Source: Catenulispora sp. MAP5-51 (GTDB lineage: Bacteria > Actinomycetota > Actinomycetes > Streptomycetales > Catenulisporaceae). From it: a stretch of DNA of 64,000 nucleotides. Each line of letters opens with the position of its first letter. Positions within the stretch are counted from its first letter, which is position 1. The notes under the pieces are model-generated. The model was not told the origin of the DNA and did no database searches. It saw nothing but the letters and a program-made list of their open reading frames with translations. The stretch spans positions 186,001-250,000 of the forward strand of contig NZ_JBGCCH010000012.1 in NCBI RefSeq assembly GCF_041261205.1, given 5' to 3'. Positions 7,041-58,176 of the stretch are shown piece by piece. A program made the position numbers and the translations under genes.

Positions 7041-10000
7041 TCAGGCGTGCTTCGCACTCGTCACCCGATAGACGTCGAACACCCCTTCAACGCCCTTCAC
7101 CGCCTTCAGCACCGCCCCCAAGTGCGCCGGGTCCGCCATCTCGAAGGTGAAGCGTGAGATGGCCACCCGGTCGCGGCTGGTCGTCACCGAGGCCGACAGG
7201 ATGTTGACGTGCTGGTCCGAGAGCACGCGTGTCACGTCCGAGAGGAGACGCGAGCGGTCAAGCGCCTCTACTTGGATCGCGACGAGAAACATGGACGCCC
7301 CTCCGGGCGACCATGACACCTCCACCATCCGTTCGGGCTGGGCGGCCAGGGATTCGATGTTGGTGCAGTCCGCGCGGTGGACGCTGACGCCGGAGGCGCG
7401 GGTGATGAAGCCGATGATGTCGTCGCCGGGGACCGGGGTGCAGCAGCGGGCCAGTTTCACCCAGATGTCGTCCGCGCCCTTCACCAGGACGCCGGGGTCG
7501 CCGGCGGGGCGGGCCTGGCCTCGGCGGGAGAGCTTCTCGATGTTGCCCGGGACGGTGGCCTCGGCCAGGTCCTCGGTGGCGCCCTCCTCGCCGCCGAGCA
7601 GGTGCAGGAGGCGGTGGACCACGTGCTGCGCCGAGACGTGGCCCTCGCCGATGGCGGCGTACAGGGCGCTGATGTCGGCGTGGCGCAGGTCGTGGGCGAC
7701 GGTGGCCAGGGATTCGGAGGTCATCAGGCGCTGGAGCGGCAGGCCCTGCTTGCGCATGGCCTTGGCCAGCTGGTCCTTGCCCTGCTCGACCGCTTCCTCG
7801 CGGCGCTCCTTGGTGTACCACTGGCGGATCTTGTTGCGGGCGCGCGGGGACGCCACGAAGCCCAGCCAGTCGCGGGAGGGCCCGGAGTTGGGCGCCTTGG
7901 AGGTGAAGATCTCGACCACGTCGCCGTTGTCCAGCTTGCTGTCCAGCGGGACCAGGCGGCCGTTGACGCGGGCGCCGATGGTGTGGTGCCCGACCTCGGT
8001 GTGGACCGCGTAGGCGAAGTCGACCGGGGTCGATCCCGAGGGCAGCGCCATCACCATGCCCTTGGGCGTGAAGACGTAGACCTCGGCAGTGGACAGGTCG
8101 AAGCGCAGCGCGTCCAGGAACTCGTTCGGGTCCGCGGTCTCCTTCTGCCAGTCCAGCAGCTGCCGCAGCCACGCCATGTCGCCGCCGGGGTTCGCGGTCC
8201 CGGCGCCGTTGGTGGGCTTGCGGACGCCCTCGACCGCGTCCTCCTTGTACTTCCAGTGCGCCGCGACGCCGTACTCGGCGCGGCGGTGCATCGCGAAGGT
8301 GCGGATCTGCAGCTCGACGGCCTTGCCGCCGGGGCCGATCACCGTGGTGTGCAAGGACTGGTACATGTTGAACTTCGGCATCGCGATGTAGTCCTTGAAC
8401 CGGCCCGGGACCGGGTTCCACCGCGCGTGGATGGCGCCGAGCGCCGCGTAGCAGTCGCGCACCGAGTCCACCAGGACCCGGATGCCGACCAGGTCGTAGA
8501 TGTCGGCGAAGTCGCGGCCGCGCACGATCATCTTCTGGTAGACCGAGTAGTAGTGCTTCGGCCGGCCGGTGACGGTGGCGCGGATCTTCGCCTCGCGCAG
8601 GTCGCCGTGCACGGCGTCGATCACCTGCGAGAGGTACTCCTCGCGCTTGGGCGCGCGCTCGGAGACCAGGCGCACGATCTCGTCGTACATCTTGGGGTAG
8701 AGGATGGCGAACGCCAGGTCCTCCAGCTCCCACTTGATCGTGTTCATGCCCAGCCGGTGCGCCAGCGGGGCGTAGATCTCCAGCGTCTCGCGGGACTTGC
8801 TCTCCTGCTTCTCCCGCTTCATGTAGCGCATGGTGCGCATGTTGTGCAGCCGGTCGGCGAGCTTGATCACCAGCACCCGGATGTCCCGGGCCATGGCCAC
8901 GACCATCTTGCGCACGGTCTCGGCCTGCGTGGCCTCGCCGAGCTTGACCTTGTCCAGCTTGGTGACGCCGTCGACCAGCAGCGCGACGGTGTCGCCGAAG
9001 TCGCCGCGAAGCATGTCGAGCGAGTAGTCGGTGTCCTCGACGGTGTCGTGCAGCAGCCCGGCGCACAGCGTGGGCACGTCCATGCCCAGCTCGGCCAGGA
9101 TCGTGGTGACCGCCAGCGGATGCGTGATGTACGGGTCGCCGCTCTTGCGCCGCTGGCCGCGGTGGTGGCGCTCGGCGACGGCGTAGGCCTGCTCGACGGG
9201 CTTGAGGTCGGCCTTGGGGTGGTTGGCCCGGATGATCTTGAACAGCGGCTCCAGGACCGGCGGCGGTCCGCCGCTGCGAGTGCTGCCCAGGCGCGCCAGG
9301 CGCGCGCGGACCCGGCTGGAGCTGGGGCGCGACGGCCCGGACTTGACGGCCGCGTTGAGCGGGACGGGGGGCGCGGCGGGCAGCGCGGGCATGGGAGCCG
9401 GACGCGGCGGAACCGAGGGCGCGGAAGGTGCCGACGGGGACGGGGACGCCGGGCTCGGGCCGCCGGGAGCCGATGAGCCGGAGGCAGGAGCCGAGGCGGA
9501 AGCCGCTGCCGCCGGGGCTGATGCGGAAGGAGCAGAGCCGGCTGCGGTCGGCCCCGAAGCGGTAGAAGCAGGTTCGGCCGAAGCGGTAGAAGCAGAAGCG
9601 GCTGCGGCCGGCCCCGAAGTGGCGGAAGCAGGAGCAGCGGCGGTCGGCGCCGAAGCGACAGAAGCAGAAGCAGCCTGAGCGGGAGGGGTCGCCGTGGCAG
9701 GCGCGGCCTGCGCGGAGGGAGCCTTGGCCCGCGGAGCGGGTGCGGTCGGCGCGGAGCCAGAGGAAGCGGGCGGCGCAGCAGGCCCACCGGGGGCCGGCAC
9801 AGCCCGAGCCGAATCCGTCGCCCCACCGCCCTCAGCCGGAGCCGTGGCGGCCCGCGGCGCCTGAGGCTGTCCGTGGTCCTGCGACTTGCCCGCGGGCGTC
9901 TCAGCGCCGTTCTCGGCGTTCTGAGCGCCCTCGGTCCCCTGGGCGCCCTTGGCTCCGGAACCAGAACCGGAACCCTTACCCCGCCCGGTCTTTCCCGACT

Positions 10001-35400: not shown

Positions 35401-37881
35401 CTACGCCAGCCCGGCCCGCCGCAGCGCGTCGGCCAGCGCACCCTGCGGCACGCCGCCACCGCCGCCACCGCCGCGCCGGTCGCCGCCACGCCGGTCGCCG
35501 CCACCGCCACCGCCGTTGCCACCGCCGCCCTGGCCGCCGCCACGCCGGTCGCCGCCGTTGCCGCCGCCCTGGCCGCCACCGCGACGCTCACCGCCGCCGC
35601 CCCGGCCGTCGCGCCCGCGACCGCCGCCGCCGTTCTCGCCCGACTGCCGCTGGCGGCCCGGGCCGCCGGAGCCGGCGCCCGCCTCGTCGTCCAGGCGCAG
35701 CGTCAGCGCGATGCGCTTGCGCACCGCGTCCACGTCCAGCACCTTCACCCGCACCACGTCGCCGGGCTTCACCACGTCGCGGGGATCCTTCACGAACGTC
35801 TTGGACAGGGCCGAGATGTGCACCAGGCCGTCCTGGTGGACGCCGACGTCGACGAAGGCGCCGAAGGCCGCGACGTTGGTGACCACGCCCTCCAGGAGCA
35901 TGCCGGGCTGGAGGTCGCCGATCTTCTCCACGCCCTCCTTGAAGGTCGCGGTCTTGAAGGCCGGGCGGGGGTCGCGGCCGGGCTTCTCCAGTTCGGCCAG
36001 GATGTCGGTGACGGTCGGGACGCCGAAGGTGTCGTCGGCGAACTCCGCCGGCTTCAGGGACCGCAGCGTCTTGGTGTCGCCGATCAACTCCTTGATGCCG
36101 GTACCGGTGCCGGCCAGGATCCGGCGCACCACCGGATAGGCCTCGGGGTGCACCGAGGAGGCGTCCAGCGGGTCGGCGCCGCCGGGGATGCGCAGGAAGC
36201 CCGCGCACTGCTCGAAGGCCTTCGCGCCCAGGCGCGGGACGTCCTTGATGGCGGTGCGGGTGGAGAAGGGGCCGTTGGCGTCGCGGTAGGCGACGATGTT
36301 GTCGGCCAGCGAGGAGCCGATGCCCGAGACCCGGGTCAGCAACGGCGCCGAGGCGGTGTTCACGTCCACGCCGACGGCGTTCACGCAGTCCTCGACCACC
36401 GCGTCGAGCGAACGGGAGAGCTTGCCCTCGGCCAGGTCGTGCTGGTACTGGCCGACGCCGATGGACTTGGGATCGATCTTCACCAGTTCGGCCAGCGGGT
36501 CCTGCAGCCGGCGGGCGATCGAGACCGCGCCGCGCAGCGAGACGTCCATGGTGGGCAGTTCCTGCGAGGCGAAGGCCGAGGCCGAGTACACCGAGGCGCC
36601 GGCCTCGGAGACCATGATCTTGGTCAGCTTCAGCTCCGGCATGTTGGCGACCAGTTCCTGGGCCAGCTTGTCGGTCTCCCGGGAGGCGGTGCCGTTGCCG
36701 AACGCGATCAGCTCGACCTTGTGCACCTTGACCAGCGAGGCCAGCTTGGCCAGCGCCTCGTTCCACTTGTTCGCCGGCACGTGCGGGTAGATCACGTCGG
36801 TGGCCACCACCTTGCCGGTGGCGTCCACGACCGCGACCTTCACCCCGGTGCGGTAGCCCGGGTCCAGGCCCATGGTGGCGCGGGTGCCGGCCGGGGCGGC
36901 CAGCAGCAGGTCGCGCAGGTTCGCGGCGAAGACCCGGACCGCCTCGTCCTCGGCCAGCGTCCACAGCTGCATCCGGACGTCCACGGCCAGCCGCACCAGG
37001 ATCCGGGTGCGCCAGGCCCAGCGCACGGTGTCGTTCAGCCACTTCACACCGGCCCCGGCGGTGGTCGGCGACGGAATGGCGAAGGCCTTGGCGATGCGGA
37101 CCTCGTAGCCGCTCTGCGTCACCGGCGCGCCCGGCTCGGCGTCCTGCGGCTCGGGGTCGAAGGTGAGGTCCAGGACCTCCTCCTTCTCGCCGCGCAGCAG
37201 CGCCAGGATGCGGTGCGAGGGCAGCGCCGTGAAGGGCTCGGCGAAGTCGAAGTAGTCGGAGAACTTCGCCCCGGCCTCCTCCTTGCCCTCGCGGACCTTG
37301 GAGGTCAGGCGGCCGCTCTCCCACATGCGCTCGCGCAGCCCGCCGATCAGGTCGGCGTCCTCGCCGAAGCGCTCGACCAGGATCGAGCGCGCGCCGTCCA
37401 GCGCCGCCGGGGCGTCCGCGACGCCCTTGTCGGCGTCCACATAGCCCGCGGCGGTCGCCGCCGGATCCAGGGAGGCGTCCGCGAGCAGCGCGTCGGCCAG
37501 CGGCTCCAGCCCGGCCTCGCGGGCGATCATCGCCTTGGTGCGCCGCTTGGGCTTGAAGGGGAGGTAGATGTCCTCCAGCCGGGACTTGGAGTCCGCGGCG
37601 AGGATCTGCGCCTCCAGGGCCTCGTCGAGCTTGCCCTGACCGCGGATGGACTCCAGGATCGCCTCCCGGCGCTCCTCCATCTCACGCAGGTAGCGCAGCC
37701 GCTCCTCCAGCGTACGCAGCTGCGCGTCGTCCAGGCCCTCGGTCACCTCCTTGCGGTACCGCGCGACGAAAGGCACGGTCGCGCCGCCGTCCAGGAGCTC
37801 GACGGCCGCCCGGACTTGCCGGTCGACGACGCCGAGCTCCTCGGCGATGCGCAGGTGGATGGACGCTGCTGTCGCTGCCAC
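35401..37881 (-). CDS. tex: Tex-family RNA-binding transcription accessory protein
   Basis: An 826-residue homologue of Tex/Spt6-like proteins that bind nucleic acid and RNA polymerase. The N-terminal helical region contains ATVPFVARYRKEVTEGLD, followed by a YqgF-like RNase H domain (MGLDPGYRTGVKVAVVD near 335), helix-hairpin-helix (VSGIGSSLADNIVAYRD near 515) and an S1 RNA-binding domain (GMLLEGVVTNVAAFGAFVDVG near 660-730). The last 75 residues are Gly/Arg-rich RGG-like repeats, an extra nucleic-acid-binding tail. The start is GTG at 37881 with GGGAG eight bases upstream. Confidence 0.94.
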   Translation of the reverse strand: MAATAASIHLRIAEELGVVDRQVRAAVELLDGGATVPFVARYRKEVTEGLDDAQLRTLEERLRYLREMEERREAILESIRGQGKLDEALEAQILAADSKSRLEDIYLPFKPKRRTKAMIAREAGLEPLADALLADASLDPAATAAGYVDADKGVADAPAALDGARSILVERFGEDADLIGGLRERMWESGRLTSKVREGKEEAGAKFSDYFDFAEPFTALPSHRILALLRGEKEEVLDLTFDPEPQDAEPGAPVTQSGYEVRIAKAFAIPSPTTAGAGVKWLNDTVRWAWRTRILVRLAVDVRMQLWTLAEDEAVRVFAANLRDLLLAAPAGTRATMGLDPGYRTGVKVAVVDATGKVVATDVIYPHVPANKWNEALAKLASLVKVHKVELIAFGNGTASRETDKLAQELVANMPELKLTKIMVSEAGASVYSASAFASQELPTMDVSLRGAVSIARRLQDPLAELVKIDPKSIGVGQYQHDLAEGKLSRSLDAVVEDCVNAVGVDVNTASAPLLTRVSGIGSSLADNIVAYRDANGPFSTRTAIKDVPRLGAKAFEQCAGFLRIPGGADPLDASSVHPEAYPVVRRILAGTGTGIKELIGDTKTLRSLKPAEFADDTFGVPTVTDILAELEKPGRDPRPAFKTATFKEGVEKIGDLQPGMLLEGVVTNVAAFGAFVDVGVHQDGLVHISALSKTFVKDPRDVVKPGDVVRVKVLDVDAVRKRIALTLRLDDEAGAGSGGPGRQRQSGENGGGGRGRDGRGGGGERRGGGQGGGNGGDRRGGGQGGGGNGGGGGGDRRGGDRRGGGGGGGVPQGALADALRRAGLA

Positions 37882-39661: not shown

Positions 39662-41854
39662 GTGAGTGGTAACGCGTTGACCAACGCGGATTCGGAGCCG
39701 GGCGGTTTCGCCCGGGTCGTGTCCGGACGAAGGTCCAAATGGGTGGTGTTCGGGGTCTGGGTACTCCTGATATTCGCCCTCGGAGGCTTCGCCTCCAAAC
39801 TGCAAGGCGTCGAGAAGAACGACAGTTCGTCCTGGCTGCCCAAGAGCGCCGAATCGACGCAGGAACTGAAGCTGGAAACGGCGTTCCACCCGAGCTGGGT
39901 GCCCGCGATCCTGCTGTTCGAACGGGACAGCGGGCTCACCGACGCCGACCACGCCCAGATCGACAAGACGGTCGCGGCGCTGCGGGACGACGCCAAGCCC
40001 GCGGCCATCAACATGGTCGTGCACAACGCGATCCTGACCCAGGACGTCAAGGACGGGCCGAACGCCGGCAAGGCGGTCCAGGTCATCGTCCCGATGGACA
40101 TGGGCAACGACGGCTGGAACAAACTGCCGGACACGATCAAGCAGATCAAGGCCGCGATGGGGCCGGCCAGCGCCGGCGAGAAGGCCTATGTGACCGGCCC
40201 GATGGGTGAGGCGGCCGACGAGGCCAACTCCTTCAAGAACATCAACGGCTCGCTCACCGGCTTCACACTCCTCGCGGTGATCCTGATCCTGCTGGTCGCC
40301 TACCGCAGCCCGATCCTGTGGTTCATCCCGATCCTGTCGGCCGGCGCCGCCCTGTTCGTCGGCGAGGGCATCATCTACCTGCTGGCCAAGCACGCCGGCC
40401 TGACGGTCAACGGCCAGTCCGCGTTCATCCTGATCGTGCTGCTCATAGGCGCGGGCACCGACTACGCGCTGCTGCTCATCGCCCGATACCGGGAGGAGCT
40501 CAGACGCTACGAGGACCGGCACGAGGCGATGGCGCACGCCCTGCACCGCGCCGGGCCCGCGCTGGTCGCCAGCTCCAGCACCGTGGCCGTCAGCATGCTG
40601 ATCCTGCTGGTCGCCCAGATGAACTCGACCAAGGGCATGGGCCCGGTCCTGGCCATCGGCGTCCTGGTCGACCTGTTCGCGATGATGACCCTGATGCCGG
40701 CCCTGGTCGTCATCTGCGGCCGCTGGATCTTCTGGCCGTCCAAGCCGACGGTGGGCTCGGAGGAGCCGACCCAGCGCGGCGTGTGGTCCCGGATCGGCAA
40801 GCGCATCGCCGTCCGTCCGCGCGCGGTGTGGATCGTCACAGCGCTGCTGCTGCTCGCCGGCGCGGCCGGGATGACCCAGCTGCACGCGCACCAGATGTCC
40901 TCGGCCGACTCCTTCGTGAACAAGCCGGACTCGGTGATCGGCGCCCAGGTCCAGGCGCAGTACTTCCCGCCGTCCTCGGGCCAGTCGCTGGACATCATCG
41001 GCAACGCCGACAAGGTCGACGCGGTGACCGCGGCGCTGAAGACGGTCCCGGGCATCGACCCGGCGTCGGTCGGCACCCCGAGCGCCGTGCCGCACCAGAT
41101 CGTGGCGGGGCGCTTCTACCTTGAGGCGATGCCGAAGGACCCGGCGGACTCCTCGGCCGCGAAGCACACCGTGAGCCTGGTCCGCGCCGCGGTGCACGCG
41201 GTCCCCGGGGCGGACGCCAAGGTCGGCGCCGGCTCGGCGATGCTCGTGGACATCGACAGCGCCTCGCGCCACGACAGCGAGTGGATCATCCCCATCACGC
41301 TGATCGCGGTGTTCATCATCCTGGGGCTGCTGCTGCGGGCCTTCATCGCCCCGCTGCTGCTGATCCTCACCGTCATCCTGTCCCTGGGCGCCTCGCTGGG
41401 CATCAGCGCACTGGCGTTCAAGGCGTTCGGCTGGAACGGCGTGGACACCAGCATGCCGCTCTACGCGTTCGTGTTCCTGGTCGCACTGGGCATCGACTAC
41501 AACATCTTCCTGATGACCCGCATCAGGGAGGAGTCGGTCCGGCGCGGCACCAGGCGCGGAGCACTGGTCGGCCTGTCCGCGACCGGCGGCGTGATCACCT
41601 GGGCCGGCCTGGTCCTGGCCGCCACCTTCGGGGTGCTGGCCGGGCTGCCGATCGTCACCTTCGCCGAGATCGGCTTCGCGGTCGCGCTCGGCGTGCTGCT
41701 GGACACGATGATCGTGCGCTCGGTGCTGGTCACCGCGCTGACGCTGGACATCGGCAAGCGCATGTGGTGGCCGTCGAAGCTGGCCACCGCCGACGAGCCC
41801 GGCGGCGGGACGCTGGACGCGGCGCGCTCGGCGGACGACAGCGTGCTGGTGTAG
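39662..41854 (+). CDS. MMPL-family RND transporter
   Basis: A 730-residue membrane protein with about 11-12 helices in two halves. Each half has an MMPL-type block: FILIVLLIGAGTDYALLLIARYREELRR near residue 260 and FVFLVALGIDYNIFLMTRIREESVRRG near 605, holding the proton-relay Asp-Tyr. Two extracytoplasmic loops of about 130 residues follow helices 1 and 7. Members export lipids or drugs. The start is GTG at 39662 with GAGGGGG upstream. A 48-bp perfect palindrome ends the unit. Confidence 0.88.
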   Translation: MSGNALTNADSEPGGFARVVSGRRSKWVVFGVWVLLIFALGGFASKLQGVEKNDSSSWLPKSAESTQELKLETAFHPSWVPAILLFERDSGLTDADHAQIDKTVAALRDDAKPAAINMVVHNAILTQDVKDGPNAGKAVQVIVPMDMGNDGWNKLPDTIKQIKAAMGPASAGEKAYVTGPMGEAADEANSFKNINGSLTGFTLLAVILILLVAYRSPILWFIPILSAGAALFVGEGIIYLLAKHAGLTVNGQSAFILIVLLIGAGTDYALLLIARYREELRRYEDRHEAMAHALHRAGPALVASSSTVAVSMLILLVAQMNSTKGMGPVLAIGVLVDLFAMMTLMPALVVICGRWIFWPSKPTVGSEEPTQRGVWSRIGKRIAVRPRAVWIVTALLLLAGAAGMTQLHAHQMSSADSFVNKPDSVIGAQVQAQYFPPSSGQSLDIIGNADKVDAVTAALKTVPGIDPASVGTPSAVPHQIVAGRFYLEAMPKDPADSSAAKHTVSLVRAAVHAVPGADAKVGAGSAMLVDIDSASRHDSEWIIPITLIAVFIILGLLLRAFIAPLLLILTVILSLGASLGISALAFKAFGWNGVDTSMPLYAFVFLVALGIDYNIFLMTRIREESVRRGTRRGALVGLSATGGVITWAGLVLAATFGVLAGLPIVTFAEIGFAVALGVLLDTMIVRSVLVTALTLDIGKRMWWPSKLATADEPGGGTLDAARSADDSVLV

Positions 41855-50897: not shown

Positions 50898-52115
50898 TCA
50901 GGTCAGCCCGACGACCGGCCCGACCACCACGATCGCCGGCGGCCGGATGCCGGCCTCGGCCACCGCCGCCTCGATCAGCCCGAGCGTGGTCTGCACCCGG
51001 CGCTCGCCGGGCATCGTGCCCTCCTGGATCACGGCGACCGGGGTCTGCGGGTCGCGGCCGCCGGCGACCAGGGTGGCCGCGATCGCGCCTATACGCTCGA
51101 TGCCCATCAGGATCACCAGTGTGCCGGTCATTCGGCCCAGCGCGGTCCAGTCCACCAGGGACTTCGGGTTGTCCGGGGCGACGTGGCCGGAGACCACGGT
51201 GAACTCGTGCGCCACGCCCCGGTGCGTGACCGGGATGCCGGCCAGTGCCGGCACCGAGATCGAGCTGGTGATGCCCGGGACCACCGAGCAAGGCACGCCG
51301 GCCTCGGCGCAGGCCAGCACCTCCTCGAAGCCCCGGCCGAAGACGAACGGGTCGCCGCCCTTGAGCCGGACCACGAACTTGCCGGCCTTCGCGCGCTCGA
51401 TGAGGACCTCGTTGATCGCGTCCTGGGCCAGGGCGCGGCCGTAGGGGATCTTCGAGGCGTCGATGATCTCCACGTCGGGCGCCAGCTCGTCCAGCAGCCC
51501 GCGCGGCCCGAGCCGGTCGGCCACCACCACGTCGGCCTCGGCCAGCAGCCGCCGGCCGCGCACGGTGATCAGGTCCGGGTCGCCGGGGCCGCCGCCGATC
51601 AGCGCCACGCCCGCGGTGCGGCCGCGGTGGTGCGGGGCGGCCAGGGTGCCGTCGCGCAGTCCCTCCAGGACGCCGTCGCGGACGTCCACGGCGCGCCGCG
51701 GGTCGCCGCCGCCGATCACCGAGACCGTCACGCCGTCGTGCCGGCCCACCGCGGGGGTCCACGCGCTGGAGTCCTCGGCGGAGTCGGCCCGGGAGCAGAA
51801 CACCCGTCCGGCCTCCGCCTCGCGCGCCACCGCGGCGTTCACCGCCGGGTCGTCGGCGGCGGCCACGGCGTACCAGGCCTGGGCCAGATCGCCCTCCCGG
51901 TACGGCCGCCGCTCCCAGACGATCTCGCCGCCGTCGGCCAGCGCCTCGATCGCCGGCGTCGCCTCGGGGGCCACGACCAGCACGTCGGCGCGGGCGTCGA
52001 GCAGCCCGAGGACCCGGCGCTGGGCCACCGGGCCGGCTCCGACCACCACCACCCGTCTGCCGGCCAGCCGCAGCGCGGCGGGGTAGACGGAGGCGGGGTC
52101 GGTCATGGCGCTCAT
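50898..52115 (-). CDS. cobA: Uroporphyrinogen-III C-methyltransferase fused to precorrin-2 dehydrogenase
   Basis: A CysG-like two-domain enzyme of tetrapyrrole synthesis. The N-terminal NAD-binding module (about 1-150; LRLAGRRVVVVGAGPVAQRRVLGLL) oxidises precorrin-2 to sirohydrochlorin. The C-terminal SAM methyltransferase (about 165-405) has GGGPGDPDLITVRG, KIPYGRALAQ, RLKGGDPFVFGRG and VPGITSSISVPALAGIPVTHRG, the SUMT signatures. It can feed both siroheme and cobalamin. It has 405 residues. The start is ATG at 52115 (MSAMTD); ATG at 52106 is the alternative. It follows the BluB-CobT gene by 38 bp. Confidence 0.93.
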   Translation of the reverse strand: MSAMTDPASVYPAALRLAGRRVVVVGAGPVAQRRVLGLLDARADVLVVAPEATPAIEALADGGEIVWERRPYREGDLAQAWYAVAAADDPAVNAAVAREAEAGRVFCSRADSAEDSSAWTPAVGRHDGVTVSVIGGGDPRRAVDVRDGVLEGLRDGTLAAPHHRGRTAGVALIGGGPGDPDLITVRGRRLLAEADVVVADRLGPRGLLDELAPDVEIIDASKIPYGRALAQDAINEVLIERAKAGKFVVRLKGGDPFVFGRGFEEVLACAEAGVPCSVVPGITSSISVPALAGIPVTHRGVAHEFTVVSGHVAPDNPKSLVDWTALGRMTGTLVILMGIERIGAIAATLVAGGRDPQTPVAVIQEGTMPGERRVQTTLGLIEAAVAEAGIRPPAIVVVGPVVGLT

Positions 52116-52153: not shown

Positions 52154-55100
52154 CTAGGCGGCGTTCTCGTCGTCGTCGTCCGCGCGCTCGGCGACGCCGG
52201 CCGACTCGAAGGTCGCCACGTCCCGCAGCGCCCGCACGGCCGCCTGCACCAACGGTAGGGCCAGCACCGCGCCGCTGCCCTCCCCCAACCGCAATTCGAG
52301 ATCGATCAGCGGGACCACGCCCAGGGCCTCCAGCGCGAGCTGGTGCCCGGACTCGGCCGAACGGTGCCCGGCGACCATGGCGTCGGTGGCCTCCGGGGCC
52401 AGCGCCTGGGCCACCAGCGCCGCGGCGCCGGCGATCACGCCGTCCAGGATCACCGGGATCCGCAGGCTCGCCGCGCCCAGGATGAAGCCGGCCAGCGCCG
52501 CGTGCTCCAGGCCGCCGACCGCGGCCAGCACCCCGAGCGGGTCGCCGGGGTCCGGCCGGTGCAGGTCCAGGGCCCGGCGCACCACGTCGACCTTGTGCGC
52601 GTAGGTCTGCTCGTCTATCCCGGTGCCGTACCCGGTGACCTGGGTCGGCGAGGCGCCGGTGAACGCGGCGATCAGCGCGGCGCTCGCGGTGGTGTTCGCG
52701 ATGCCCATGTCGCCGGTCAGCAGCACCTTGTTCCCGGCGGCGACCAGGTCCCGCGCGGTCTCCACGCCGACCTCGAGCGCGGCCAGCGCCTCCTCGCGGG
52801 TCATCGCCGGCCCCTCGGCCAGGTCCGCGGTGCCGTACCGGATCTTGCGCGGCACCAGCCCGGTCTGCTGCGGCAGCTCGGCGTTCACGCCGACGTCCAC
52901 CACGCACACCTCGGCGCCGATCTGGTGCGCGAAGGCGTTGACCACGGCGCCGCCGGACAGGAAGTTCATCACCATCTGCGCGGTGACCTCCTGCGGCCAG
53001 GGCGTGACGCCCTGCGCGTGCACCCCGTGGTCGGCGGCGAAGATCGCGACCGCGGCGGGCTCGGGGATCGGCGGCGGGAAGACCCCGGCCAGCCCGGCCA
53101 GCTGCACGGAGACGTCCTCCAGGACGCCCAGCGCCCCGGCCGGCTTGGTCATGACCTCCTGCCGGGCGATCGCCGCGTCGCGCGCGGCCTTGTCCAGCGG
53201 CTCGATCGCGGCCAGGGTCTCCTCCAGCAGCGACACCGGGTTGCTGCCCGGCAGCGCCCGGCGGCCGTACTGCTCGTCGTGCACGGCCCAGGCCAGCGGC
53301 CGGCGCTTGGCCCAGCCGGCCCCGGACAGCTCCGGCTCGCCCGGGAACTCGTGGACGTAGCCGACGCACAGGTAGGCGACCACCGACAGGTGGTCGGGCA
53401 GGTCCAGGGTGCGGGTGAGCTCGCGCTCGTCGAAGAAGGACACCCAGCCCACGCCCAGACCCTCGGCCCGCGCCGCCAGCCACAGGTTCTCCACCGCCAG
53501 CGCGGCGCTGTACGGCGCCATCTGCGGCTGCGAGTGCCGGCCCAGCGTGTGCCGGCCGCCCCGGGTCGGGTCGCAGGTCACGACGATGTTGACCGGGGTG
53601 TCCAGGATCGCCTCGATCTTCAGGTCCTTGAACGCCCGCTGGCGCGCCTTGGGCAGCGAGGCGGAGTACGCGTCGCGCTGCCGGGCGGCCAGGTCGTGCA
53701 CGGCCTGCCGGGTCTCCCGGTTGCGCAGCACCAGGAAGTCCCAGGGCTGCGAGAAGCCGACGCTCGGCGCGGTGTGCGCGGCCTCCAGGACGCGGGTGAG
53801 CACCTCGTCCGGGATCACGTCGGGCAGGAAGGTGGAGCGCACGTCGCGGCGCTCGCGGATGACCCGGTGCACGGCGGCCAGCTCGGCGTCGTCGTACGGC
53901 GGGACGCGCGGGACGTCGTCGTAGGGCTCGCCGTCGGTGTCGTAGAGGTCGTCGGCGCCGGCCTGGTTCTCCAGCTCGCCGGCGTCGGCGTTCTCGGACC
54001 CGGCGTTGGCCCACGGGACGAGCATCTCGGGCTCGGCGTCGCCGTCGGCGTCCTCGTCGAGCTCGTCCTCACCGTCGTAGTCGTCGTACTCGCCGACCGC
54101 CTCGGCCGGCGTGATCGCCACGGTCGGTGTCGCGAACACCGGCCCCGGCTCCTCCCCGGCCCCGCCGAACTCGACGCCCTCGGCCGGGTCGTCGAACACC
54201 GGCGGCGCCGGCTCGAAGCGCGGCGGGTCCAGGTGCGCGGCCAGCGGCGGCTCGGCCTGCGGCTCGGCGGCACCGGGGTTGTTGCCGGCGTTGTTGCCGG
54301 CGCCCAGACCGTAGTCAGGGCTGGTGTTCGGGGTCAGCGGCCGGTCGCCGAACGACGGCATCCCGCCCTCCGGCGCGCCGAAGATCGGCGCGGCCGGCGC
54401 GGCCGGCCCGGCGGGCGCGCTCGGCGCGGACTCGGCGGCACCGAAAGGCGTCTCCTCGACCGGCCGGGCCCCGAACGACGGGTCGTTCCCGGCCTGCGGC
54501 GCGAAGGCCTGCGGGCCGCCGAAGGTCGCCTGCGGGTCGATGCCCGCCGAGTGCGCGTCCTGCGCGGTGGGGAAGACGGGCTCGGCGTTCTCGGCGCCGA
54601 ACGGCTGCGGAGCGGGGGCCGCGGGCGGGAAGCCCTGGGCCTCGCCCTGGAAGCCCTGCGCCTCGCCCTGGAAGTGCTGCCGGGAATTGAAGGAGGGCTC
54701 GCCGGCCGGCGGGAAGCCCTGCTGGTTGTCGAAGACCGCCTCGTCGGCACCGAAGCCGCCGGCCGGCGGGAAGTTCTGCGGCGCGCCGAAACCGGGCTCG
54801 CCGAACCGCTGCTGGCCGTCGAACCCGACAGCATCCTCGCGCTCGGTACCGAAGCCCTGCGGGCCCCCCACAGGCGGGAAGCCTTGCGGCGCACCGAATC
54901 CGGGCTCGGCGCCTTCCTGGCCGAAGCCCTGCGCGCCGAAACCGGCGTCCGCGTTGTCCGCGCCGAAACCGGGTGCATTGGCGTGCGGGAAGCCTTGCTG
55001 CGCGCCGAAACCAGCCTCGGCACCTTCGTGACCGAAGCCGTGCGCACCGAACCCGGCATCGGGGTTGTCCGCGCCGAAACCGGGCGCACCGGCGGGCGGG

Positions 55101-56509
55101 AAGCCTTGCGGAGCACCGAATCCAGCCTCAGCGCTTTCGTGGCCGAAGCCCTGCGCACCGAACCCGGTGTCGGCATTGTCCGTGCCGAACCCGGGGCCGC
55201 CGGCGGGCGGGAAGCCTTGCGGCGCACCGAAACCGGCGTTGTTCGCGCCCGGGAAACCCTGCTCCCCGAACGCCTGCTCCTCGGGCTGCGGCGCCGCGAA
55301 GCCCTGCGGTGCGCCGAAGCCCTGCGCCTCCTCGGCACCGAAGCCGTGGCCGTCGGTGTTCTGACCGCCGGGGTGCCGGCCGAAGGAGTCCTGGCCGAAG
55401 GAGTTCTGGCCGAAAGAGTCCTGGCCGGGCTCGTCGATGATCGCCGGGATGATGTCCGTCGGCTGGTCGTAGGACGCCGGGCCGCGCAGCGGTGCGCGCA
55501 GGTCGAAGCCGGGGCGCTCGGGCGGTTCCGGGGCGGCGTCGAAGACGCTGATGTCGACCTGGCCGCGCTGCTCGCGGGGGTCCCGCTGGTCGCGCTGGTC
55601 GCGCTGCTCGCGGGGGTCGCGCTCGTCACGCGGGAGCGGGGTCCGGTCGGCGGCCTCGTCGAAGTCGTTGCCGTCGGCCGGGGACGCCTGCTGCGGGACC
55701 ACCGGGTCGCGGCGGAAGACGTCGAACTGCTGCGCCTGGCGCAGGGCCTCGGCACCGCGCGCGCCCGGGGAGCGGCGGGGGGTGGGGCCGGAGTCGGCGT
55801 TGGCGTCGCGCTGCTGCGGCACGCCGAAGGCGCCGCGGCCGTCAGGACCCTGATTGCGGGGCCCGGGCTGCGGGCCGCGGGCGGGCGGCGGCTGCATCTG
55901 CGGCATCATCGGGCGCTGAGCACGGCCGGGCTCGCCGGGAGCGCGGCCGCCCTCGGCCGGGCCGCGGCCGCCGGCCGGCGGCTGGTCGCGGAACGCCGAG
56001 CCGGGCGGCACCACGGGGCCGCCGGGCGCGCCGGCCGGACGCGGACGGATCGGGCGCGTGGGGCGGTTCGCCGACTCCGGGCCCTGAGGTCCGCCGGGGC
56101 CGCCTTGGCCGCCAGGACCGCCGGGCATGCCGCCGGGGCCGCCGGGGCCTCCAGGGCCACCCAGACCGCCCGGACCGCCGGAGCCGGGCCGGCCCGACTG
56201 CTCCGGCCCGCCGAACGCACCGCGCGGGTCCCGGCCGTCGCGCATCCGCGCGCCGACCGGTCCACCCGGTCCGTTCGGTCCGCCGGGTCCACCCGGCCCA
56301 CCCGGTCCCGCGGAGCCGTTGCGCGGCCCCGGGAACTCGGCTTCGTCGTCGAACACCAGCCTGCTGAACTCGGTGGTCGGCGCGCTGTCGTCGTAGGGTC
56401 CCGCGCCGGGCGGGAAGCCGTCCTCGAACGGCGGCCTCCCGGAGCCGTCACGCCCGAAATCGTCGGCACCGGTCACCGTGGGTTCCTCGATCCTGTCGTT
56501 CCATACCAT
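52154..56509 (-). CDS. cobT: BluB-CobT fusion with long disordered N-terminal region
   Basis: A 1451-residue protein that combines two steps of B12 lower-ligand handling. Residues ~868-1088 are a BluB-type flavin destructase ([63 protein letters not shown]) that makes 5,6-dimethylbenzimidazole. Residues ~1088-1440 are CobT ([43 protein letters not shown] and the catalytic Glu in [11 protein letters not shown]), which activates it to the ribotide. Residues 1-865 are disordered: collagen-like Gly-Pro tracts, then Phe-Gly-rich repeats (about 420-605), then acidic sequence. I chose ATG at 56509; the frame opens 31 codons earlier. It precedes cobA. Confidence 0.9.
   Translation of the reverse strand: [1451 protein letters not shown]
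54879..55211. repeat. Three exact 111-bp tandem repeats in the BluB-CobT tail
   Basis: The shared segment AAGCCTTGC recurs at 54879, 54990, 55101 and 55212, exactly 111 bp apart. Each 37-codon unit encodes four Phe-Gly dipeptides. Degenerate copies continue on both sides. Confidence 0.9.
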
Positions 56510-56661
56510 GGTTCGTATCCCGCTCCCGTTCCCCGTGTCCCCCATTGTCAGCGGGGGTTCGCGTTCGCGTGGGCGCTGCCAAGTATCGCTTGTCGACGGC
56601 ACGCGCGAGCCCGGAAGAGCATACGCAGCCCCTGATCGGGTTGACTAAAAAGCCGGGTCTG

Positions 56662-57948
56662 TCACCCAAGCTCACCCCAAAGAACGAATACCGGCGCCGC
56701 CGGCGCCAGCCGGAGCGCGTCCCCCGGGCGGGGGGCCAGGCGCGAGGCCTGCAACTGCACGCCGTCCACCCGGCGGTCGCCGATCCGCAGCGCCTGCCGG
56801 ATGGCCGGCAGCCGGTCCAGCGCGGTGACCGCGGTGACCACGGTGCGCGCGCCGGTGGTGGCGCACGCCCGGACGATCTCGGCCCGCTCGGTCCCCACGA
56901 ACACCGAGTCCGGGCGCGGCAGCGTGGCCAGGGCCGCCGGCGCCAGGCCGCTGACCACCTCGACGTCCACGCCGTGCATCACCGCGTTCAGCGATATCCG
57001 CTCGCAGGCGTCCGGATCGCGCTCCACGGCGATCACCGCCGCGCCCAGCCGCGCGCACTCCACGGCCAGCGCCCCGGCCCCGGCCGCGATCTCCCACACC
57101 ATCGCGCCCAGCCGCGGCGCCAGCCGCGCCAATATCAAGGCCCTGACTTCGGCGGGGAGCACCTGCGGCCCGCGGGCCACGAACGCGTTGTCCGGCACCG
57201 CCCAGCCGGCCGAGGGCCCGGCCCAGGCCGACACCCAGCCCGAGCCCCAGCGCGGGTCGTGCGGCGAGTCCGGGCTCAGCCGCTCCTCGTCCAGCACCAG
57301 GATCGCGTCCGCGGCGCCCCAGACGACCCGGGCGGCCGCCTCGGTCGGCGAGACCTTCTCGATCCGCTCGTCGGGCTCCCCGAGGTGCTGGGCCACGATG
57401 AAGGCACGCTGGGCCCCGCGCAGGGCCGCGGCGACGCGGTGCGGCGGGAACTCCGGGGCGGCCACGATGGCGACCTTCGGGTGCGCGCGGGCGGTGTTGG
57501 CGGCGCGCTGCAGCGAGCGGTCGTCGGTGACGCAGACCACGACCGCGTCGTCCCAGGGCAGCCCGAGGCGGCCCAGGGTGGCCGCGACCGGGCCCGGCGC
57601 GGGGTAGCCGACGACTTCGAAGCCTGATTCGCGCAGATCGCGCAGCACGCCGAAGAACCCCGGGTCCCCGGCGGTCACCACCACGGCCGGGCCGGCCTTG
57701 GGATCGGTCAGGTGCGCGGTGAGCCGGGCGTAGGCCAGGCGGTTGTCATCGCCCAGCAGGATCCGCCGCACGTGCTCGGGCACGCCGATCCCGTCGAGGT
57801 GGCGCGCCACCCCCACGACAAGTTCGGAGGACTCCAGGACCCGGCGGACCACCGGCCCCGGCAGCGATCCGTCGTAGCCGACGACCGCGACCGCCGCGGC
57901 GGCCTGGGCTATCGCCGGCCCCGCGGCCCCGTGCCGGCCGGCGGTCAC
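56662..57948 (-). CDS. cobL: Precorrin-6Y C5,15-methyltransferase (CbiE+CbiT)
   Basis: A bifunctional cobalamin-ring methyltransferase/decarboxylase of 428 residues. The CbiE half (about 15-230) has VAVVGYDGSLP, VVVTAGDPGFFG and the C-terminal strand set. The CbiT half (about 245-428) has a SAM motif EIAAGAGALAVECARLGAAVIAVERD and VFVGTERAEIVRACATTGARTVVTAVT. I chose GTG at 57948 (VTAGRHGAAG), preceded by GGGGGG; GTG at 57963 is the alternative. It lies upstream of the BluB-CobT gene, which starts 152 bp later. Confidence 0.92.
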   Translation of the reverse strand: MTAGRHGAAGPAIAQAAAAVAVVGYDGSLPGPVVRRVLESSELVVGVARHLDGIGVPEHVRRILLGDDNRLAYARLTAHLTDPKAGPAVVVTAGDPGFFGVLRDLRESGFEVVGYPAPGPVAATLGRLGLPWDDAVVVCVTDDRSLQRAANTARAHPKVAIVAAPEFPPHRVAAALRGAQRAFIVAQHLGEPDERIEKVSPTEAAARVVWGAADAILVLDEERLSPDSPHDPRWGSGWVSAWAGPSAGWAVPDNAFVARGPQVLPAEVRALILARLAPRLGAMVWEIAAGAGALAVECARLGAAVIAVERDPDACERISLNAVMHGVDVEVVSGLAPAALATLPRPDSVFVGTERAEIVRACATTGARTVVTAVTALDRLPAIRQALRIGDRRVDGVQLQASRLAPRPGDALRLAPAAPVFVLWGELG

Positions 57949-58176
57949 GCCGGCCCCCCGCACAAAGCCACGGCGAAGCCGGGGGCGCGCCGTGGATCGG
58001 GCATGGAGAGGTCCTCCGCGTTACGTCTGTAGGAACTTCAACGCACACTAACACCGCCTGTTCCACAAGTGAGGCGGCGAATCAGTCAAAAGCGGGTAAA
58101 TCAGGCAGCGAACAATCCCGTCGGGCCGTGGCGCGGATCTCATCTCGCGCGCCGGTGGCGCGGGCGGACCGGGGAC

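Follow-up and report, generated by a model that had tools for sequence, protein, structure and literature searches.

The closest described systems to the gene considered here, a bluB-cobT fusion located in a 64,000-nucleotide stretch of Catenulispora sp. MAP5-51 (contig NZ_JBGCCH010000012.1, positions 186,001 to 250,000, hereafter the window), are fusion proteins from Propionibacterium and Streptomyces. According to the accessible text of two reports, the biochemically characterised BluB/CobT2 fusion of Propionibacterium freudenreichii makes and activates 5,6-dimethylbenzimidazole (DMB) (PMC4657239; PMC10038948), and BluB-CobT fusions are widespread in Actinobacteria (PMC4657239). Like the window protein, the P. 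freudenreichii enzyme (CBL56167.1) consists of BluB followed by CobT with a short linker; unlike the window protein, which has ~860 residues before BluB, it is 626 amino acids long, begins with BluB at residue 1 and carries no long tail (PMC4657239). The BluB/CobT protein of Streptomyces griseus, for which a 2015 paper records an additional N-terminal part 'of unknown function', has the same three-part architecture as the window protein (PMC4657239). In our data, Streptomyces tails are of low complexity and bear motifs, whereas those of the window's genus have other peptides and Phe-Gly repeats which Streptomycetaceae lack. Finally, S. coelicolor SCO1554 (cobT) resembles the window locus in its neighbourhood, as SCO1553, a cysG gene, adjoins it; the transcripts of both genes respond to HbpS-SenS-SenR, and in the accessible part of the report SCO1554 is named only as CobT (PMC4991794).

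In the open-access literature, subscription papers being mostly outside this scope, we found nothing on the tail beyond the S. griseus sentence in the available text of PMC4657239. The BluB-CobT fusion and the existence of the S. griseus N-terminal extension are, on the strength of that text, already known. New within the open-access literature, as far as our searches go, is that this extension is a translated and selected tail, probably disordered, which is the norm in the order and contains peptides specific to each lineage.

The fusion protein and its N-terminal tail

Both enzyme domains of the window protein are complete, as had been proposed by the sequence-only reading, a first inspection of the window made without database searches. 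The BluB domain covers positions 1-205 of the 205-position NCBIfam profile TIGR02476 (281.8 bits, cut-off 150); CobT is matched over its full length by TIGR03160 (NCBIfam, 425.6 bits, cut-off 319.3) and scores 429.2 bits against PF02277 (Pfam, cut-off 22.6). With BluB followed by CobT in one frame, the protein belongs to the BluB/CobT2 type of fusion. The BluB domain aligns along its length with structure 2isj, and its RRDVR and GWVS motifs pair with the same residues of that structure (a numbering offset of 3 being assumed for both); the catalytic Asp and Ser of BluB are D32 and S167 in S. meliloti. The CobT domain aligns with structure 1wx1, its GEG-x-G region LRLGEGSGAVLALP pairing with LALGEGTGAVLAMP. 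This catalytic motif near the C-terminus presumably corresponds to Glu317 of the Salmonella enzyme, and its residues G536, E537 and G538 are invariant across 19 sequences. Homology thus supports a bifunctional protein with predicted DMB synthase and phosphoribosyltransferase activities. The earlier suggestion that one polypeptide would make and activate DMB is borne out by the complete domains and by the P. freudenreichii precedent.

The open frame extends from stop to stop over 52154-56602 on the minus strand and comprises 1482 codons, ending at 52154; residue numbers of the window protein given from here on refer to this 1482-residue frame unless stated otherwise. The ATG at 56509, previously taken as the start, is without a Shine-Dalgarno match and is now regarded as the alternative. 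A GTG at 56476, 33 bases further inside, is preferred because it is preceded, seven bases upstream, by AGGA (a four-base match), because a sister-genus genome has an ATG at the equivalent place (its protein beginning MTGTDEFGRE) and because the preceding 30 bases are identical in six congeners. This GTG is likely the real start, giving a protein of 1440 residues, ~860 of which precede BluB.

The long low-complexity region formerly described ahead of the enzymes therefore stands, with no recognised domain in it. Its make-up was also correctly described as a Gly-Pro tract, a Phe-Gly repeat block and an acidic stretch. The term 'collagen-like' holds for composition only: no Pfam collagen family matches at an expectation value (E) <=1, and the length of the tract varies among congeners. 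Residues 43-899 include 63 Phe, 33 Phe-Gly (FG) dipeptides and 125 Asp plus Glu, with no Lys. In a ranking of low-order stretches across 464 kb of the same genome (a 400-kb sample plus the window, ~324 putative genes), the fusion came first with 366 residues, several of the 13 rows looking like wrong-frame artefacts, which makes this ranking no firm measure of rarity.

The tail bears the marks of translated sequence. Across residues 1-880, divided into eleven 80-codon windows, the guanine-plus-cytosine content at codon position 3 (GC3) lies at 0.72-0.97; from residue 881 onward it is 0.96-1.00. Compared with the congeneric locus L033, the differences in the tail are distributed over the three codon positions as 40:38:138, with most at the third. 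This codon-position pattern and the third-position divergence argue that the tail is translated and is not a run-through frame. Against six congeners, the ratio of nonsynonymous to synonymous substitution rates (dN/dS) is 0.23, 0.27, 0.34, 0.32, 0.32 and 0.57 for the tail and 0.10-0.17 for the enzyme part, these values, obtained by the Nei-Gojobori method on a gap-rich alignment, being rough. As judged from these comparisons, the tail is under purifying selection. The peptides VTGADDFGR, RGAEALRQAQQFDVFRR, PTDIIPA and EMLVPW are nearly unchanged among congeners, while the lengths of the Gly-Pro and Phe-Gly parts grow and shrink.

It had been asked whether the enzyme might instead start near residue 860. 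The ATG at that residue is without a Shine-Dalgarno match. Two other in-frame codons bring this back in part: an ATG at tail residue 748 (54359-54361, minus strand), preceded by GGAGG, would leave a 155-residue tail, and a GTG at tail residue 822 (54137-54139, minus strand), preceded by AGGAG, would leave one of 81 residues. Given these Shine-Dalgarno-like matches, a second, shorter product from an internal start is possible.

Occurrence of the tail and peptides kept within lineages

A scan of 60 genomes of relatives, the window's own included, revealed a near-full match to the fusion in 57; the other three (G003, G005 and G046) have a partial fusion or none. Fifty-five of these 57 fusions sit in open frames of 885-1886 amino acids, a rough guide to length, since the frames were taken between stops, some passing the gene's own stop and some ending at contig ends. 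One of the two remaining fusions is cut by a contig end (G013), and the other, from another family, is tail-less with an open frame of 584 (G015). A second set consisted of named loci, the best 80 of a longer list and biased to close kin (chiefly Streptomyces, also Kitasatospora, Actinospica and others). Contig ends cut 18 of them; among the 62 others, 58 have an intact tail and four are broken or unclear (no start found in L129, a frame break in L175, a run of N in L176 and an in-frame break in L181), and no clean tail-less gene was found among these 62 assessable loci. Some genomes occur twice in the pooled sets, by handle and by name (e.g., L039 and L112). The suspicion that most relatives might be without the tail is thus contradicted, and the long-tailed fusion, which had been thought to stand out, is what this gene normally looks like in the order. 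This comparative evidence marks the tail as a trait common to the group rather than an error of annotation.

Outside the order, a scan of the class (394 genomes, 102 matches at E <=1e-100) yielded 33 fusions, all of which were fetched. Family f19 accounts for 24 of these, and 22 of them carry the tail. A start was recognised for 19 of the 22; contig ends truncate another two, and the last, L072, has an unsure start and a weaker coding pattern. The other two f19 fusions (G280 and G380) were judged tail-less, as a good Shine-Dalgarno sequence precedes a start beside BluB, with upstream GC3 still at 0.80-0.83. Families f14, f15, f25, f35 and f42 have the tail in none of nine fusions (nothing longer than ~70 residues), the call resting on an upstream frame without coding pattern or, in f25 (L088), of <=70 residues. 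In a tree of the enzyme part built by a quick method with 52 rows, f1, f2 and the tailed rows of f19 each form a starred group of their own; the fork at which the tail-less f3 and f15 join f1 and f2 is unresolved, and as few as two changes of the tail can suffice.

Two explanations of the long frame were rejected. A run-through or misannotated frame is excluded by the GC3 pattern, the dN/dS values among congeners and the intact tails of the named loci, and an oddity of a single genome by the tails found in the relatives scan, the class scan and the named loci. Separately, two loci that are long in other respects, L175 (Streptomyces mexicanus) and L181 (S. viridochromogenes), have a tail frame broken upstream of BluB, which may reflect either a sequencing error or a real loss.

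Comparison of the tails indicates extreme variation in length and sequence, yet every lineage retains a set of short peptides peculiar to it. In Streptomycetaceae, a conserved head of ~200 residues is followed by a variable linker rich in Ala, Pro and Glu, with a total length of 462-1595 amino acids, and the head peptides lie at a median of 44-159 residues from the start. Motifs picked after viewing the sequences were counted in 84 of these tails: VRSLADRGP occurs in 71, RRPLHxGPP in 67, GPEYxD in 65, a GRDSG motif in 55 and an acidic-LLLxP-W motif in 49. Shuffled tails gave 0/1680 for all of these except GPEYxD (4/1680). Weaker motifs are PQxxxPW, in 50/84 tails but also in 57/1680 shuffles, and an FVxVEGxVP type (23/84). 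In an alignment of 48 tails, whose members were chosen partly by the start motif, the invariant residues fall at four sites, namely the start (MTDTG, G11, P13, G18), an LxxPxxQxxW that follows an acidic run, the RPxxxxP within RRPLHxGPP and the VxxLxDRG within VRSLADRG. In a codon-level test which covered two lineages, synonymous codons vary freely under VRSLADRGP and RRPLHxGPP, and those of MTDTGQVPGEG vary less. Since codons vary under conserved peptides, selection acts on the peptide and not on the DNA.

Other lineages keep other peptides. Tails of f19 contain GLLDxLPExG (17/19), NPF (16/19) and NV[IV]P[FL]R (14/19), and those of the window's family an APTTEF-type peptide together with EM[LV]VPW (9/10, the tenth, L011, being cut by a contig end); both sets of counts are without a shuffled control. 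Streptomycetaceae and the window's family both have an acidic run with a hydrophobic-Pro-Trp core behind it, no more than a weak resemblance.

No folded part was recognised in the tail. Pfam searches found no domain in the tails of five tailed proteins (at E <=1 for the window's). AlphaFold returned coil for the last 163 tail residues of the window protein (block-mean predicted local distance difference test score, pLDDT, 25-38) and for the whole 462-residue tail of Streptomyces locus L184 (34-48), the two models having a mean pLDDT of 55.8 and 46.3 and, with shallow alignments, low confidence; neither of these weak models has a helix or strand ahead of BluB. The tail is thus probably disordered, as had been supposed earlier, a prediction that concerns parts of two tails only. 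A Foldseek search with the first model, that of the window protein, brought up the expected structures of CobT and BluB. The missing Pfam matches in the five proteins and the absence of helix and strand in both low-confidence models led us to set aside a folded tail domain.

Searches for a borrowed origin led back to the same gene. The 200-residue Streptomyces head was compared with 11 genomes: in the six of the Streptomyces family, only each genome's own copy of this gene fell under E 0.003, and in the other five the best match was one place in G303 (E 6e-4). When two stretches of the window tail were searched against six genomes, nothing fell under E 0.01 except this gene and its equivalent in congener G004. 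A 155-residue stretch comprising the conserved blocks and the acidic part has no second copy in its own genome at E <0.02. A tail borrowed from another protein was accordingly rejected, as the Streptomyces head and the window-tail stretches found practically only this gene.

What the tail may do

We propose that the tail serves as a flexible arm by which, through its peptides, the DMB-making enzyme docks to one or several partners, a reading which we find plausible without quite expecting it to be right. The protein would be a bifunctional, aerobic enzyme of B12 synthesis: BluB would break reduced flavin mononucleotide (FMN), yielding DMB, and the attached CobT would convert it at once to alpha-ribazole phosphate; the fused steps would keep DMB from leaking, a compound described as a flavin antagonist in Salmonella in the accessible text of PMC10468695. 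The long, probably disordered arm ahead of BluB would act as a flexible tether, and the short peptides conserved in each lineage within a fast-changing linker would attach the enzyme to one or several partner proteins, most plausibly other B12-assembly enzymes, DMB and the ribotide being passed on near the membrane-bound last steps. As the peptides lie in the head and the total length is free, the layout would be that of a binder, a stalk and an enzyme. Because peptides are kept in this floppy front, the tail probably does some job. A membrane-anchored CbiB-CobU-CobT-CobC-CobS complex has been proposed, and the accessible text of this proposal mentions nothing apart from the membrane proteins themselves that would physically hold it together (PMC8092220). 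The motif-bearing arm would offer short, concrete peptide baits in non-pathogenic laboratory Streptomyces, which makes a tethered complex directly testable; should the arm be idle, it would show how much disordered sequence GC-rich genomes tolerate. A more specific version, in which streptomycetes and their relatives possess a recruitment arm with a conserved peptide head on a disordered stalk of ~250-1400 residues, fishing for a B12-assembly partner and forming a tethered bacterial metabolon with different peptides in each lineage, appears doubtful.

Several observations weigh against a docking arm. The analysis pointed to no particular partner protein, no peptide is clearly common to Streptomycetaceae, f19 and the window's family, and the AlphaFold models, weak as they are, give no sign of the tail folding or docking. 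The window-tail stretches do not retrieve the tail of the sister genus (G012). Complete-looking tail-less fusions exist in f3, f14, f15, f25, f35, f42 and in two members of f19, where they presumably work, and the tail would therefore not be needed for catalysis. In two f19 loci whose tails each exceed 500 residues, a BluB motif is changed with the CobT half and the long tail retained: RRDVR reads RHEAH in L103 (genome G366), and GWVS reads GWIP in L101 (genome G234). The use of the tail may therefore not be DMB channelling, and it may serve CobT or something else instead. Also, a second CobT in the same genome (described below) may serve the membrane complex instead of the fusion.

The strongest competitor to docking, which we nevertheless consider unlikely, is that the tail is a near-neutral, bristle-like disordered stretch, either just tolerated or of slight benefit to solubility or stability, with a length and composition that drift in GC-rich genomes. 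The huge changes in length and composition, the repeats expanding and contracting among congeners, the tail-less fusions of several families and the tail stretches that are unrecognisable between sister genera would all be in line with drift. By contrast, drift does not readily account for VRSLADRGP being kept in most Streptomycetaceae tails over freely varying codons, for the intact tails of the assessable named loci (drawn from the best 80) or for a dN/dS <1 in all six comparisons.

The sequence-only reading had suggested condensates or scaffolds, the tail driving phase separation and gathering B12 enzymes in droplets. The tail of the window's genus would be suited to this, as its Phe and FG content, Gly-Pro tracts and tandem repeats amount to a sticker-and-spacer make-up. 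Yet the median number of FG or GF dipeptides is 47 in the genus (n=7) and 0 in both Streptomycetaceae (n=86) and f19 (n=19), and the median share of aromatic residues is 8.1% in the genus against 1.5% in Streptomycetaceae and 1.6% in f19. In the rest of the window's family, the FG/GF median is 3 (n=3, two being contig-cut), and Streptomycetaceae tails (n=86) have a net charge of -0.136 per residue. Since Phe-Gly repeats were seen in the window's genus only, a conserved function cannot rest on them. Condensation as a general function is therefore not supported and, with the tail as a whole in view, quite improbable; if it matters, it would be a local addition of the window's genus.

Known cargoes of family-2B encapsulins have long disordered N-terminal regions, and the tail might similarly pack the enzyme into such a shell. 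A family-2B shell match above cut-off is indeed present in 11/13 tailed versus 5/11 tail-less genomes. However, G218 and G226 are tailed without a shell, G280 and G380, tail-less and of the same family, have full shells, and no shell gene lies beside bluB-cobT where neighbours were named. As these mismatches within f19 contradict a fixed link, cargo loading was rejected as a general role and is hardly credible. The tail could also be a regulatory arm, its Ser/Thr-containing peptides (APTTEF in the window's family, VRSLADRG in Streptomyces) being phosphorylated or bound by a signalling protein and thereby tuning the use of FMN by BluB. The near-constant APTTEF-type peptide of the window's family agrees with this, as does the modest, HbpS-SenS-SenR-dependent increase of the S. 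coelicolor SCO1554 (cobT) transcript in oxidative stress (M 1.14, below the paper's 1.5 mark) given in the accessible part of PMC4991794. The peptides differ among lineages, though, and the published control is transcriptional, which leaves such a regulatory role very unlikely.

Features and neighbourhood of the locus

The features of the locus are listed in Table 1.

Table 1. Positions of the fusion gene, its parts and the adjoining genes within the window.
Feature	Coordinates	Strand	Remarks
bluB-cobT fusion gene with long N-terminal tail	52154..56476	-	most likely coding sequence, GTG start, 1440 amino acids
GAGGA, Shine-Dalgarno-like	56484..56488	-	7 bases before GTG 56476
Low-complexity N-terminal tail (residues 43-902)	53897..56476	-	no Pfam match at E <=1; dN/dS 0.23-0.57
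Conserved N-terminal peptide block, VTGADDFGR ... APTTEFSRLVFDD	56345..56476	-	APTTEF-type motif in 9/10 family tails
Gly-Gly-Pro low-complexity tract	56087..56305	-	length differs among congeners
Phe-Gly-rich block	54443..55405	-	includes a 111-bp (37-residue) tandem repeat at 54873-55234; in the genus only, in the sets examined
Conserved tail blocks MPSFGDRPLTPN.. and DPPRFEPAPPVFDDPAEGVEFGG..	54098..54370	-	from comparison of congeners
Acidic stretch with conserved EMLVPW peptide	53897..54097	-	directly before BluB; EM[LV]VPW in 9/10 family tails
BluB domain (predicted 5,6-dimethylbenzimidazole synthase, flavin destructase)	53279..53896	-	TIGR02476, residues 903-1108
BluB-CobT linker, 28 residues	53195..53278	-	borders from NCBIfam domain matches
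CobT domain (predicted nicotinate-nucleotide:DMB phosphoribosyltransferase)	52193..53194	-	TIGR03160, residues 1137-1470
cobL-like gene (CbiE and CbiT domains)	56662..57963	-	directly upstream
cysG-like gene (uroporphyrinogen-III C-methyltransferase, siroheme synthase N-terminal domain)	50898..52115	-	directly downstream

The cobL-like gene scores below cut-off with both of its profiles (TIGR02467, 74.9 bits, cut-off 92.9; TIGR02469, 57.0 bits, cut-off 78.3). The cysG-like gene is above cut-off for TIGR01469 (269.7 bits, cut-off 185) and TIGR01470 (74.6 bits, cut-off 62.3) and below it for the full-length CysG model NF007922 (320.1, cut-off 400). A cysG-like gene also directly follows the fusion in L164 (Streptomyces), in L041 (sister genus) and in L087 and L073 (other family). 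Upstream, the cobL-like gene is found in the window and in L164, and a cobC-type aminotransferase gene takes its place at the tail-less loci L083, L094 and L043 and at the tailed L073.

The genome of the window encodes a second CobT (G000, contig 9; L106, 2978-5898), which matches PF02277 with 306.5 bits and is ~39% identical. It resembles the fusion in belonging to the CobT family and in having an acidic low-complexity N-terminus, here of ~80 residues; it differs in lacking BluB and in having cobU-like and cobS-like neighbours. Most genomes of the relatives scan likewise contain a second CobT-like match.

Rfam gave no match at gathering scores between positions 40000 and 64000 of the window. 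Further repeat stretches are present in the window at 9516-9674 and 35446-35633.

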